64,000 nucleotides of DNA, taken from the IMG/VR virus record IMGVR_UViG_3300046514_000858, positions 1 to 64,000 of that record. The stretch is one strand, 5' to 3'. The position numbers and the translations under genes are program-made. Origin of the DNA: a virus. This document shows positions 3,298 through 53,091 of the stretch, one piece after another; within the stretch, counting starts at the first letter, position 1; every line of letters begins with the position of its first letter. Below the pieces are notes generated by a model. The model searched no databases. It was not told the origin of the DNA and worked only from the letters and a program-made list of their open reading frames with translations.

Positions 3298-4421
3298 AGA
3301 TCGCCGTCTTCTCAGACATCCATTTCCATCCGTTCCCGACTTTCGCCAAGGTCGGCGCGGATGGTCTGAACTCCCGACTGCAGCACACCTTCGACCGCGC
3401 CCGCGACATCGTGCGGATTGCGCGGGAGCAGGAGTGCGATGCCATTCTCTTCGGCGGGGATCTCTTCCATACGAAGAAGATCGACGCTGAGACCATCGAC
3501 ATTGCCGAACGAGCTTTTGCTGATTGTAGGATTCCCATCATCGGAGTGCCCGGCAATCACGACATGGCCACATTCGGCCCCGGGGCGCGGCACTCGGCCC
3601 GCGCCTTGTCGAAGCATATCCGTTGGTTGGATGGTACGGATCAATATGGGCGGAGCGCCGACATCACGATCTACGCCAGTCAGTCGAATCAGCAGACAGT
3701 GAAGGTATGGGGCATCCCATACGTTCATGACAAGAATCTGCTGCTGCAGGAGCTCGACAAGGTGCCCAAGGGGACCGACATCCTCTTGATGCACTGCGGC
3801 TTCGCGGGCGGATTCATGGGAAGCGACTACATCGCCGACCTCGGCGATTGCATCGACTACTTCTCGTGCAACGGCAAGGCCGATCTCGTCGTGTCCGGAC
3901 ACTTCCACCAGCCCCAGCTCATCACATGGAACGAGAAGGGCGACGTGAAGAACGACCGGCCGAGTGCGAACGGCCCGCAGTTCGGACGATGGGAGAAGGG
4001 CCGCGGCATCCTCGTGCCGGGCTCGCCCGAGCAGCATACGTGGGGCGACAAGGGATCGGCCCGCGGCTTCTGGATCGTGGACGTCACCGAGCGCAAAGCC
4101 CACTTCCAGCACCTCATGTCGCCGGAGTTCGTGGAGATTGACAAGGACTGGATGAGTACCGGCGCATCCATGAAGCACAATCAGTACGTGCGAGTGATAG
4201 GGACGCCCTCCGATGCCGATCTCACAGAGCTCAAGATGTGCACGCCGCATCTCGTCATCGAGGCCGCGCCGACGTCGATCACGCGCCCGCAGCGTTCCTT
4301 CGAGGTCGCTGTGGGAGATGCTCCGGGCGCACTGGTTCAGAAGTACGTCGCTGCGTCCGGCACCCCGCTGGATCAGGAGCGACTGATCAAGGAAGGGAAG
4401 AGGCTACTCGGATGCAACTGA
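3294..4421 (+). CDS. sbcD: SbcD/Mre11-type DNA exonuclease subunit (gp47-like)
   Basis: The 375-residue product carries the calcineurin-like phosphoesterase motifs in order: FSDIH near residue 8, GGDLFH, PGNHD, LMHCG and SGHFHQPQ. Together these bind two metal ions for nucleolytic cleavage. It should pair with the SbcC-like ATPase encoded next to process DNA ends for recombination-dependent replication. The start is GTG 3294, overlapping the previous stop. It overlaps the next gene by 10 nt. Confidence 0.88.
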   Translation: MKIAVFSDIHFHPFPTFAKVGADGLNSRLQHTFDRARDIVRIAREQECDAILFGGDLFHTKKIDAETIDIAERAFADCRIPIIGVPGNHDMATFGPGARHSARALSKHIRWLDGTDQYGRSADITIYASQSNQQTVKVWGIPYVHDKNLLLQELDKVPKGTDILLMHCGFAGGFMGSDYIADLGDCIDYFSCNGKADLVVSGHFHQPQLITWNEKGDVKNDRPSANGPQFGRWEKGRGILVPGSPEQHTWGDKGSARGFWIVDVTERKAHFQHLMSPEFVEIDKDWMSTGASMKHNQYVRVIGTPSDADLTELKMCTPHLVIEAAPTSITRPQRSFEVAVGDAPGALVQKYVAASGTPLDQERLIKEGKRLLGCN

Positions 4422-14632: not shown

Positions 14633-15250
14633 GTGAAGAAGCTGACCAAGAAAGACTGGGTCGCCCGCGGTGTTCACAACAACTCCGAAGTCGCCAAGCT
14701 CGGAGGCGCGACGATCTATCTCTCGTATCGTACAGCCGAGACCGGCCGCGCGTCTCAATCCGCCGCGTGGCAGGTCATCGACGTGAATGGCAAGAGCGAC
14801 CCGAACGCACATTGGCGCGACTACGGCAACGCGACCTTCTCGCTCTGGAATCGCACCGAGAACCAGAAGCGTCTCGACGAGGCAAAGAAGTTCGCGACCG
14901 AGAAGTATGGGATCAAGGAGTGGGAGAAGGGCGGCCCGTACGGCGACTGGTTCCCCGAAGGAACGCTGGCCATGGCCGCTCACGCGACCGAGGCGTTTGA
15001 TCCGAAGAATCGCATGGACGTCGAGATCATTGTCCGCGGGCCGATAAGGTGCGGCAAGACGACGTTGTCGCACATGATCGACGGTCTGCTGAAAAGCAAA
15101 GCCTTCGAGTCTCAGGTCATCGACCGCGTCAAACCGGGCGTGGTCGAAAATGAGAAGGTGAACGACGAAGCCCTGAATCATCCCTATCATGTCTTCGGCA
15201 AGCGCGTCAAGATCACGATTCGGACGGAGCAGACGCAGCGGACTTCGTAA
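14633..15250 (+). CDS. P-loop protein, 205 aa
   Basis: The C-terminal 80 residues carry a Walker A-like IIVRGPIRCGKTTLSHMI and end in a beta strand (VKITIRTEQTQ), a layout seen in small phage NTP-binding proteins. There is no clear Walker B. The N-terminal 125 residues contain a DUF-like aromatic region (WFPEGTLAMAAHATEAF). The start is GTG 14633 after the previous stop. Confidence 0.55.
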   Translation: MKKLTKKDWVARGVHNNSEVAKLGGATIYLSYRTAETGRASQSAAWQVIDVNGKSDPNAHWRDYGNATFSLWNRTENQKRLDEAKKFATEKYGIKEWEKGGPYGDWFPEGTLAMAAHATEAFDPKNRMDVEIIVRGPIRCGKTTLSHMIDGLLKSKAFESQVIDRVKPGVVENEKVNDEALNHPYHVFGKRVKITIRTEQTQRTS

Positions 15251-15413
15251 TTGAACGCTATGAAGAAGCCTAAAAGAAAACGAAGGCTGCCACTCTGTTG
15301 GCTGTGCCGCAGCAGACTCCGGGAGGGATGGAAGTGGGTCGCCAGCAAATGCGGCCTTGTGCGAATGCATCCCAAGTGTCGTAAATTTTACTGGACATAG
15401 ACGAAAGAGCTAT
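15250..15413. repeat. 164-bp inverted repeat, copy 1
   Basis: This segment reappears in the opposite orientation at 41181-41344 with about a dozen scattered differences. Each copy contains one 46-codon zinc-ribbon gene and short flanks. Confidence 0.85.
15260..15400 (+). CDS. 46-aa zinc-ribbon protein, duplicated gene copy 1
   Basis: The protein is very basic at the N-terminus (KKPKRKRR), then has CWLC and later C31 and C40, a likely zinc site. A near-identical 46-residue copy is encoded at 41194-41334 (-). Most differences are silent and only three residues change, which indicates selection on the protein. The function is unknown; nucleic-acid binding is a reasonable guess. Confidence 0.7.
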   Translation: MKKPKRKRRLPLCWLCRSRLREGWKWVASKCGLVRMHPKCRKFYWT

Positions 15414-15428
15414 TCGAGGGTAGACACT

Positions 15429-28972: not shown

Positions 28973-29590
28973 ATGAGCCAGTGGTTGATCGCAGGCAAGA
29001 CCAAGTTCGGTGTCTATGAGGCCATGGACATCATGAAGGCCGAGCCCGCCGAGTGCGATGACGAGGGCCGGGACCGCTGGATCGAGTTCCTCAAGAAGGA
29101 AGGGCGCTGGAACGACGAAGTCTGCGGCGCGCGGCCCATCGCCTCGGTCAACGTCGACGGCGGCGGCATGATGATGATCGGCGAGCCCGATGTCGCGTGG
29201 GAAGCCAACGGCTGCAAGTTCGAGACGCCCATGCGGCAGGTCCGCGATCTGCTGGAGCTGTTCAAGCGCCGCATCTTGAAGCCAGTCGAGGCGTTCCCGA
29301 GCTGCGGCGGCTTCGGCGGCTTCCATCGGAAGTACTTCTTCGCCCTGAAGACCATGCAGGACTCGATCCCGCTCCTCGAAAAGCTGGCCGACGAGTCGGA
29401 CAAGAAAGTCGAGGAGATCGAGAAGAAGCTGCAGGCCGCGCTGAACGCCTGTCCCAACGCGGTGAGCGTCCGGCCCTGCTCCTGTGCCTCCGGCCGCCAG
29501 TACGGCGACTGCTGCGGCAAGGCCGTGGAGTCGGCCGAGCACAAGGAGATGCGCCGGGGCATCAACGCGGGGGAGATTCAGAAGAACTAG
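28973..29590 (+). CDS. SEC-C zinc-motif protein, 205 aa
   Basis: The C-terminal CSCASGRQYGDCCG matches the SEC-C motif, a zinc hook seen at the end of SecA and in many small proteins. The N-terminal 150 residues are unrecognised, with a long charged helix before the motif. A structured RNA starts 4 nt after the stop. Confidence 0.65.
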   Translation: MSQWLIAGKTKFGVYEAMDIMKAEPAECDDEGRDRWIEFLKKEGRWNDEVCGARPIASVNVDGGGMMMIGEPDVAWEANGCKFETPMRQVRDLLELFKRRILKPVEAFPSCGGFGGFHRKYFFALKTMQDSIPLLEKLADESDKKVEEIEKKLQAALNACPNAVSVRPCSCASGRQYGDCCGKAVESAEHKEMRRGINAGEIQKN

Positions 29591-29593
29591 GAG

Positions 29594-29812
29594 AATCCCC
29601 TAAGTGATCAGCCTCTGGTGCAGGGATCGAATCCCAGCGGGATCACGGCCGAGGATGAACCCTGATGAGGGGAGAACTCAGATCGCGAGTGAACTCGCCG
29701 ACAGAGAATAAGCGCCCCCGTATCTGCACGAATTCTAGACTCCCGTGCAGGGGCAAGGGTGACGAACCACCGGCCGATGCCGGGTAACAGGCTGATCACT
29801 TAGGGGATTTTT
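29594..29812 (+). ncRNA. Highly structured RNA of about 215 nt closed by a 21-bp perfect helix
   Basis: 29594-29614 is perfectly complementary to 29789-29809, and a U-run follows. Inside are several short hairpins: GGGAT/ATCCC (29623-29635), CCCT/AGGG (29660-29671), GCGAG-TGAA-CTCGC (29685-29698), CTGCACG/CGTGCAG (29724-29750, extended by GCCC/GGGC), GGT/ACC near 29758-29768, and CGGC/GCCG (29771-29782). No open frame fits. I do not recognise the family; it is not a tRNA, tmRNA or RNase P by eye. Confidence 0.65.
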
Positions 29813-29825
29813 GAATCGCTTTTCC

Positions 29826-29854
29826 TGTCATACCCTCCTCGTTCGGTCGTCTCT
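29826..29854 (+). promoter_or_regulatory. Class 1 promoter
   Basis: TGTCAT, 16 nt, CGTCTCT, then AATACGGCTGATG. It drives the gene at 29880. Confidence 0.6.
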
Positions 29855-38767: not shown

Positions 38768-39219
38768 TGGGCGCGCACATCCTTGGCGATTTCCGCACGC
38801 AGCCGCACTGCGAATTGCCCGAGTCCTACTTCACCGGCCGAGACTGCTGGGTCGACTGTCGCGCGCCCGACATGTTGCACATCTCCCGGGACTGCAACAT
38901 CGGCTGGGAGGCCCGGCTGGTCTGTCAGTCCCACAACCCGATGCCCGGCAAGTTCGGCGACGTGACCGCGCGCTCGATTATCATTCGGCCCAAGGCGTTT
39001 ATCGCCGGGTTCGCGACGCTCTACAACTGCGAGATCGGCGAGGGGTCTGTCGTGGCGCTCGGGGCCGTGGTGAGAAGTCGGATCGTGCCGCCGTGGGTGA
39101 TCGTCGAGGGGAATCCGGCGCGCATCGTGAGCAGCTTCGACCATGTGCTCGGGAAGTGGGTCGAGGTGCCGGGGGAATCAGGACTTGGGGAGAACCTTCC
39201 AATGCGTCATCGGCGGTAG
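38767..39219 (+). CDS. Hexapeptide-repeat acetyltransferase, 150 aa
   Basis: Repeated turns (ISRDCNIGWEARLV, IIIRPKAFIAGFATLY, IGEGSVVALGAVVRSRI) and the terminal VIVEGNPARIV are the signature of left-handed beta-helix acyltransferases of the WbbJ/maltose O-acetyltransferase type. It likely acetylates a sugar. Its 3' end overlaps the convergent gene by 42 nt. Confidence 0.8.
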   Translation: MGAHILGDFRTQPHCELPESYFTGRDCWVDCRAPDMLHISRDCNIGWEARLVCQSHNPMPGKFGDVTARSIIIRPKAFIAGFATLYNCEIGEGSVVALGAVVRSRIVPPWVIVEGNPARIVSSFDHVLGKWVEVPGESGLGENLPMRHRR

Positions 39220-41164: not shown

Positions 41165-41180
41165 ATTTGTTGTGCACCGT

Positions 41181-41344
41181 ATAGCTCTTCCGTCTATGCC
41201 CAGTAAAATTTACGACACTTGGGGTGCATCCGCACAAGGCCACATTTGCTGGCGACCCACTTCCATCCCTCCCGGAGTCTGTTTCGACACAGCCAGCAGA
41301 GCGGCAGCCTTCGTTTTCTTTTAGACTTCTTCATAGCGTTCAAT
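41181..41344. repeat. 164-bp inverted repeat, copy 2
   Basis: Inverted counterpart of 15250-15413, carrying the second copy of the 46-codon zinc-ribbon gene. Confidence 0.85.
41194..41334 (-). CDS. 46-aa zinc-ribbon protein, duplicated gene copy 2
   Basis: Differs from the copy at 15260 only at residues 4 (Ser), 18 (Asn) and 46 (Ala); other nucleotide changes are silent. It has CWLC plus two further Cys and a KKSKRKRR start. Confidence 0.7.
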   Translation of the reverse strand: MKKSKRKRRLPLCWLCRNRLREGWKWVASKCGLVRMHPKCRKFYWA

Positions 41345-51732: not shown

Positions 51733-53091
51733 ATGGACCTCAAGAAGATTCAGGACGAGATCGCGCAGACGATGGCCGAAGCGCGCAAGCAGATCGAGAA
51801 GAAGAACGCCGGTCAGGGCTCCTTCAACGCCGAGGCGTTCGAAGCGAAGTTCATGAAGGCGCTCGCCGACCGCGACGCCATCCACGCCGCCGAAAAGCGG
51901 AAGGCCCCCTTCATCATGGAAGAGGAGCCCACCAAGCCCCAGCCCCGCGTGCTTCTGGAGAAGTCCGAGCGGCCGGAGGTCAAGGAGTTCCAGAAGTTCA
52001 ACGACGACTGCGTCATGCTGGCGTCGCTGACCCGGAAGCACCCCACCACGCTGGAGTACTTCCAGAAGAACAAGGACCGCTTCCTCGACGAGCGCGGCAG
52101 CACCGAAGTCGCCAAGGCCATGGCCGCCGCGACCGGCGGCTCCGGCGCGGACTGGGTCCCGACCGAGTTCAGCTCCGATCTCTACGACCGCGTCCGGCTT
52201 GACGCCGTGATCGCGGGGCAGTTCGCCGAGATCCAGATGCCGACGCCCATCTACAAGCTGCCCACGGGCGACACCGATCCGACCACGTATCTCACGCCCG
52301 AGAACACGTCGGACACCCCGAACCTGTACCCGGCGTCCACGCCCTCGACGGGCAACGTCACCCTGACCGCGTCGAAGCTGACCACGAACATGGTCTTCAG
52401 CGACGAGATCACGGAGGACTCGATCATCCCGATTCTGGAGTACCTCAAGAACCGCCTCGCGAAGTCCATGATGTACACGCTGGAGGACGCCTACCTGAAC
52501 GGCGACAACTCCACGACCCACATGGACGCCGACGTCACGGTTTCGACCGACGCCCGCAAGGTCTGGAAGGGCCTGCGCAAGCTGGCGCTGGTCTCGAAGG
52601 ACACGTCCTTCTCCTCGTGGGCTCCCGCGGTGGTCGCCACCGGCATCGGCCTGCTCCGCTCCATGCGCTCGAAGATGGGTCGCTACGGCACCCTGCCCAG
52701 CAAGCTGGCCTACATGGTCGGCGTGCGCGGCCTGATCGCGCTGCTGAGCATGCCCGAGATCATGACGCTGGAGAAGTACGGCCCGCAGGCCACGATCCTG
52801 ACCGGCGAGATCGGCAAGGTCGACAACATCTCGGTGCTCGTCTCCGAGAAGTTCCGCGAGGACCTGAACGCGTCCGGCTTCAACGACTCGACGACCAACG
52901 TCCGCGCGGCGATCCTGCTCGCCCACCTCCCCGCCTTCGTGCGCGGCACGCGGCGTGGACTCCGGGTCCGGCCGTGGGTCGACCCGCGCTCCGGCACCCA
53001 GAACCTCGTGCAGGACTGGCGCGGCGACTTCCAGCCGGTCTTCGCCACGGGCCAGCCCTACGTGGTCAAGGGCGTGGACTGGGGCATCTGA
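51733..53091 (+). CDS. Major capsid protein, HK97 fold, 452 aa
   Basis: The N-terminal 130 residues are charged coiled coil (delta-domain-like). They are followed by the HK97 order: SGADWVPTEFS, LPTGDTDPTTYLTP, a central NMVFSDEI and LEDAYLNGD, and late MPEIMTLEKYG and VLVSEKFREDLN. The position after protease and scaffold-like genes fits. Strong terminator and Shine-Dalgarno sites follow. Confidence 0.88.
   Translation: MDLKKIQDEIAQTMAEARKQIEKKNAGQGSFNAEAFEAKFMKALADRDAIHAAEKRKAPFIMEEEPTKPQPRVLLEKSERPEVKEFQKFNDDCVMLASLTRKHPTTLEYFQKNKDRFLDERGSTEVAKAMAAATGGSGADWVPTEFSSDLYDRVRLDAVIAGQFAEIQMPTPIYKLPTGDTDPTTYLTPENTSDTPNLYPASTPSTGNVTLTASKLTTNMVFSDEITEDSIIPILEYLKNRLAKSMMYTLEDAYLNGDNSTTHMDADVTVSTDARKVWKGLRKLALVSKDTSFSSWAPAVVATGIGLLRSMRSKMGRYGTLPSKLAYMVGVRGLIALLSMPEIMTLEKYGPQATILTGEIGKVDNISVLVSEKFREDLNASGFNDSTTNVRAAILLAHLPAFVRGTRRGLRVRPWVDPRSGTQNLVQDWRGDFQPVFATGQPYVVKGVDWGI

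Follow-up and report, generated by a model that had tools for sequence, protein, structure and literature searches.

The element described here lies in a 64,000-nucleotide stretch of DNA (hereafter the window), positions 1 to 64,000 of IMG/VR record IMGVR_UViG_3300046514_000858 (G000). The full record comprises 93,745 bases at 62% G+C and belongs to a virus of bacteria or archaea, with PHROGs profiles matching terminase, portal, UvsX-like recombinase, SbcC-like and tape-measure genes. Immediately upstream of the element is a 205-aa ORF, for which searches of Pfam and PHROGs gave no match and whose stop codon (TAG, 29588-29590) is 3 nt ahead of the element's 5' arm; the initial annotation of the window had correctly placed the element close behind a stop codon but gave the gap as 4 nt. 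It had also described the element as ending just ahead of a promoter, and a recurrent phage motif does begin at 29822. This promoter-like motif has the form TTYCTGTYAYG-N(13-15)-GGTCGTCT(T/C)A, precedes small genes, and is found at seven sites in the 93.7-kb record, on the + strand in all seven (29822-29854, 30784, 34255, 36194, 42167, 27451 and 13477). At the start of several ORFs it is translated into a 'VGRLRYV'-like peptide that is misleading. The coordinates of the element and its neighbours are collected in Table 1.

Table 1. Features of the structured RNA locus in window coordinates
Feature	Position	Strand	Remarks
Upstream ORF, 205 aa	28973-29590	+	C-terminus CxCxSGx7CCG, SEC-C-like by eye
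P1, 5' strand of closing helix	29593-29614	+	21 pairs, 5 two-sided compensatory, 0 broken
P2, GGUGC/GCGCC	29617-29621 with 29712-29716	+	Consensus fold, invariant
P3 hairpin, GGGAU-CGA-AUCCC	29623-29635	+	In both copies, stem invariant
P4/P5 long hairpin	29637-29698	+	5 two-sided compensatory pairs in P4 and P5 together
P4 strands	29637-29649/29685-29698	+	
P5 strands	29651-29653/29677-29679	+	
ACAGAGAAUAAgCGCC, CR-II (J11/12)-like	29701-29716	+	Identical in both viruses; RNase P profile match
P6 and P7 hairpin	29717-29759	+	1 compensatory pair in P7
P6 strands	29717-29719/29757-29759	+	
P7 strands	29724-29730/29744-29750	+	
P7 loop A(A/G)UUCUAGACUCC, 13 nt	29731-29743	+	Nearly invariant
GGCAAGGGUGACGA, CR-III (J12/11)-like	29752-29765	+	Consensus AAA replaced by ACGAA
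P8 hairpin, CCGGC-CGAU-GCCGG	29770-29783	+	1 compensatory pair
P1, 3' strand of closing helix	29789-29810	+	T-run after it in the G000 copy only
Recurrent phage promoter motif TTCCTGTCAT..GGTCGTCTCT	29822-29854	+	Serves next gene; 12 nt past element

Two further features of the window emerged from a near-identical contig of the same virus, IMGVR_UViG_3300046739_000432, which is otherwise 99.97-100% identical. Its positions 4133-4299 brought to light a 167-bp stretch present in the window as two inverted copies with 93% identity (15250-15416 and about 41178-41344), and about 69 bp at 52911-52979 are absent from it, a difference that reads as a strain-level deletion or repeat collapse.

Ends, folding energy and coding status

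The element is 216 bases long (29594-29809, with the outermost pairing at 29593-29810), and all 21 nt of its 5' arm (29594-29614) find a complement in its 3' arm (29789-29809), exactly the perfect closing helix that had been proposed. The arm sequence is unique in the window, 0 further copies being expected by chance. Folded as a whole, the element has a z-score of -5.4 against shuffles, whereas the interior without the terminal helix is no more stable than its shuffled versions (z = -0.9 and -0.75), so that folding stability by itself proves the outer helix only. The predicted interior structure is demonstrated by the covariation presented below and not by folding energy.

A T5 run is found at 29808-29812; the U-run had been described as following the helix, but it lies partly within it and is missing from the homologue described below, which leaves no conserved terminator role. 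A scan for intrinsic terminators did not call the element. Contrary to the statement that no reading frame lies inside, there is one ORF, of 63 codons on the minus strand, but it is not coding: all five codon differences from the homologue are non-synonymous, in a stretch that is conserved, and on this ground we rejected it as a gene. A search of the window with Rfam 15 at the gathering cut-off matched no family, in keeping with the earlier failure to recognize one. At lax limits the two copies gave scattered chance matches, none common to both; among the candidates rejected were box C/D matches to sR7, sR60 and sR10, which fall far under the cut-off and are not shared by the homologue.

A homologue at an unrelated gene position

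A relative of the upstream 205-aa protein led us to a second virus record, IMGVR_UViG_3300028024_000105 (G001; 96,810 bases), in which whole-record blastn then located a homologue of the RNA at 38867-39082, with 75% identity end to end (E = 1e-34). In G001 the RNA does not follow the gene homologous to the 205-aa ORF (L004:10001-10606, 61% identical) but sits 15 kb away, closely 3' of a 58-aa ORF and 5' of another small ORF. Since the flanking genes differ between the two viruses, the element is not tied to particular neighbours, and regulation in cis of one particular gene was rejected on the same ground.

Each of the two records holds one copy, and these two are the only known members of the family. 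Viral contigs were scanned, with exact and degenerate patterns, for GGGTGACGAACCACC, the terminal repeat, GACAGAGAATAAGCGC and gapped CR-II/CR-III; besides the G001 homologue these scans returned a single genuine RNase P gene (L055), with otherwise only chance matches in coding sequence, so that motif scans of IMG/VR gave no copy beyond G000 and G001. Distant blastn found no copy among INPHARED phages and PLSDB plasmids, and neither fragments of this virus nor the records of its distant portal relatives yielded a further one. A covariance model (R2) had no match in 399 genomes of one phylum and 201 of another, phyla that may not include that of the host.

ARAGORN reported no tRNA or tmRNA in the window or in the G001 segment bearing the homologue. 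In the scanned parts of each record there is a single predicted tRNA gene, in G000 an unusually long (95 nt) tRNA-Pro (agg) at 84346-84440 and in G001 a tRNA-Arg (tct) at L004:13464-13540.

Secondary structure and covariation

RNAalifold applied to the two copies gives a common structure of 60 pairs in eight helices, in which 12 pairs show two-sided compensatory changes, two show one-sided changes and none is broken. No column shuffle in 500 reached the observed covariation, and when the partners were displaced by 1-3 columns, 0-2 two-sided compensatory pairs remained. Because the consensus structure came from the same two sequences, two further tests were run. The first concerned P1, a helix fixed beforehand, having been named from the window alone in the initial annotation: five of the six changed positions in the 5' arm face the five changed positions in the 3' arm with complementarity kept, for which the chance is about 1.2e-6. 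In the second, the alignment was stripped of P1 and still gave a consensus energy of z = -4.66 against column shuffles, none of 400 reaching it, while seven compensatory pairs were attained by only 1 of 400 such shuffles.

G-U pairs occur in P1, P2 and P4, placing the RNA on the + strand. P2, P3 and P6 are invariant between the copies and hence not tested by covariation. Instead of the at least six hairpins first counted, the consensus has four apical ones (P3, P4/P5, P7 and P8), to which the closing helices P2 and P6 are added. The long P4/P5 hairpin has a conserved internal stretch, AGAUCGCGAGUG, and a variable apical loop. The most conserved blocks are ACAGAGAAUAAgCGCC and GGCAAGGGUGA, flanking a hairpin, and divergence between the two copies is greater in the terminal arms than in the core. 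The P7 loop of both viruses contains a 6-nt palindrome, UCUAGA, by which a kissing dimer is possible. Its 7-mer UUCUAGA also fits an anticodon loop with CUA; this reading was rejected, as the letters fit but the remainder is not a tRNA. The P3 loop (GGGAUCGAAUCCC) was likewise considered and rejected as a T-arm mimic, because the A58 that this requires is lost in the homologue (GGGAUCGCAUCCC).

The full-length homologue and its 12 compensatory pairs thus support the earlier proposal of a structured RNA and supply the compensatory changes by which it was to be checked. We conclude that the element is almost certainly a structured noncoding phage RNA of about 216 nt, with a four-hairpin core and a closing helix of 19-22 bp. 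As read from the two aligned copies, the substitutions show that purifying selection preserves its base pairs in two related viruses, in which the RNA occupies unrelated gene positions.

Resemblance to the specificity domain of RNase P

The invariant blocks ACAGAGAAUAAGCGCC and GCAAGGGUGACGAA recall CR-II and CR-III of RNase P, a likeness absent from the initial annotation. As in the class A S-domain (RF00010), ACAGAGAAUAA precedes and GGCAAGGGUGA follows a hairpin, the phage CR-II is one to two letters off natural RNase P genes (ACAGAGAATAACCGCC, of the L229/L215 type), and the order of elements runs parallel: closing helix, two hairpins, CR-II, hairpin, CR-III, hairpin. RNase P is established to bind the tRNA elbow through its J11/12-J12/11 motif (PMC13254310, PMC4919913).

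RNase P genes were collected with RF00010 from 50 genomes of one phylum and from chance-selected genomes, and the J11/12-P12-J12/11 segment was cut from 31 of them to build profiles, the choice of genes being independent of the phage motif. With a two-block profile the site in the element ranks first in the window, at 23.1 bits. A three-block profile scores 27.7 bits at the element and 23.9 bits in the G001 homologue; this value is reached by 0 of 20,000 shuffles per element (best 22.9 in 40,000 element-sized shuffles), by 0 of 150 simulated 64-kb sequences (best 22.6) and by no unbiased real decoy (best 10.1), p-values that are somewhat flattering because RNase P was compared after the likeness had been noticed. 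In the reverse direction, all GTDB species (257 Gb) were searched with a pattern derived solely from the phage RNA, which gave more than 118 matches; among the 80 matches listed, at least 73 are RNase P genes by a CR-I test, or 74 counting one (L122) by eye.

Other comparisons are less favourable. A covariance model of J11/12-P12-J12/11 has its best match in the window at this site, though not a significant one (12.6 bits, E = 0.13), with E = 0.97 when decoys chosen in part for similar motifs are included. Rfam's full RNase P model does not report the element, and the best matches to the catalytic core P4 (CR-I GAGGAAAGUCCGG, CR-V ACAGAANCCGGCUUA) are no better than shuffles. The phage RNA differs from RNase P in being without a catalytic domain and without counterparts of P10/P11 and P14 in its consensus fold; the strand 5' of CR-II pairs upstream, in the covarying P4, rather than downstream, and the GCGCC expected in P12 is used by the predicted P2. 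The T-loop sequence is present in the first region and off consensus in the second, where UGACG replaces the near-invariant UGAAA that follows GGG in CR-III. We therefore class the element neither as RNase P nor as a proven T-loop-docking RNA. The likeness of its core to the part of RNase P that grips tRNA hints at a tRNA-binding role and does not prove one, and that the element works like an RNase P specificity domain is, in our estimate, rather doubtful.

Comparison with other RNAs

Among small stable RNAs encoded by phages are prohead RNA (pRNA) and the T4 stable RNAs C and D; the present RNA has no sequence or Rfam match to them, and the terminase of this virus is an ordinary large subunit by PHROGs. 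GOLLD and ROOL resemble it as structured phage RNAs without known function that are independent of coding genes, but they are 600-800 nt long, have other structures and often lie near tRNA islands, whereas this RNA is 216 nt, adjoins no tRNA gene and has no Rfam match. In the scanned parts of both viruses the predicted tRNA gene is far from the RNA, which argues against a tRNA-island link of the GOLLD/ROOL type. With the interdigitated T-loops of T-box riboswitch Stem I and the ribosomal L1 stalk, the RNA shares only the proposed function of docking to the tRNA elbow: there is no common sequence or architecture and no Rfam match, and the specifier loop and antiterminator of the T-box are not seen. 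In RNAs that dock in this way, two T-loops interlock and stack on the G19-C56 pair of the tRNA. By sequence and architecture, then, this is a new RNA family with members in two related viruses so far, of a kind not without precedent.

Discussion

An RNA acting in trans is likely, probably excised from a longer transcript, because its neighbours differ between the viruses while it directly follows a gene; RNase III or another enzyme might process it near the long closing helix. The two most conserved unpaired blocks, ACAGAGAAUAA and AAGGGUGA, flank a hairpin as in J11/12-P12-J12/11 of RNase P and might, as a tentative proposal, form a tRNA-elbow docking module modelled on the interdigitated T-loops of RNase P, with the P6/P7 hairpin bringing the blocks into apposition. 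The RNA would then behave like a specificity domain that stands by itself, with no catalytic domain attached, holding tRNA or a tRNA-like RNA, and its purposes could include shielding tRNA from host nucleases, sequestering it, or competing with host RNase P.

A trans-acting structured RNA need have nothing to do with tRNA, and we put at nearly even chances the reading that it is a scaffold, a protein-binding RNA or, for example by way of the palindromic UCUAGA in the P7 loop, a self-associating one, much like GOLLD, ROOL or prohead RNA, with the RNase P likeness a coincidence or a generic A-rich tertiary motif. All the covariation evidence fits this equally well, the P7 loop A(A/G)UUCUAGACUCC matches the RNase P-like blocks in conservation, the covariance model lends RNase P weak support, and large phage RNAs of unknown function do form kissing-loop oligomers (PMC12286853). 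Left unexplained is the two-block RNase P match in sequence, order and spacing (0 of 20,000 shuffles), and a 6-nt palindrome in a 7-nt loop is expected by chance in about 1 of 32 loops.

The gene neighbourhood bears on whether the element is instead a cis-acting 3' untranslated element, whose helix and T-run end transcription or protect the 3' end of the upstream mRNA and whose core is incidental. It stands 3 nt past a stop codon, with a T-run at its end and a promoter no more than 12 nt downstream, and the G001 copy is likewise close behind a small ORF; but that copy has no T-run and follows a different gene, the G001 homologue of the preceding gene is without the element, and a terminator needs no conserved 170-nt core with 21-nt invariant blocks, so we consider this improbable. 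Perfect terminal inverted repeats, and a genomic position that differs between two related viruses, would suit a miniature inverted-repeat transposable element, an alternative already raised in the initial annotation. The arms, however, are less conserved than the core and have changed with compensation, the reverse of what transposon ends show; each genome has just one copy, searches of phage, plasmid and viral collections gave no match, and neither target duplications at the ends, as noted from the start, nor identical copies flanked by them elsewhere were found. A mobile element is accordingly very unlikely. Slighter still is the chance of a retron msr-msd or another reverse-transcribed RNA closed by a1/a2 repeats: the ends do pair over a long helix and an AGC is conserved at the inner end of the 5' arm, but a PF00078 reverse transcriptase is found in neither virus record, while positive controls were detected.

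Docking to the tRNA elbow is the leading mechanism suggested by the core motif, and it is unproven. Taken as a whole, the statement that this is a structured RNA that acts in trans and docks to tRNA elbows may be correct, with the odds somewhat against it; a free-standing viral RNA of this kind, by which the phage would hold, protect or withdraw tRNAs during infection, is for us a speculative prospect.

What the analysis provides is a structured RNA family absent from all libraries, supported by covariation and short enough to be synthesized and probed. A review of the tRNA-elbow motif suggested viral transcriptomes as a place to find new tRNA-gripping RNAs (PMC4919913). If the docking proposal is true, the three natural users of the motif, RNase P, T-boxes and the ribosomal L1 stalk, would be joined by a fourth, the first to come from a virus. 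This RNA would then offer a concrete and testable example of tRNA being handled by a phage through RNA rather than protein, and would bear on tRNA-targeting defence and on the evolution of the two domains of RNase P.
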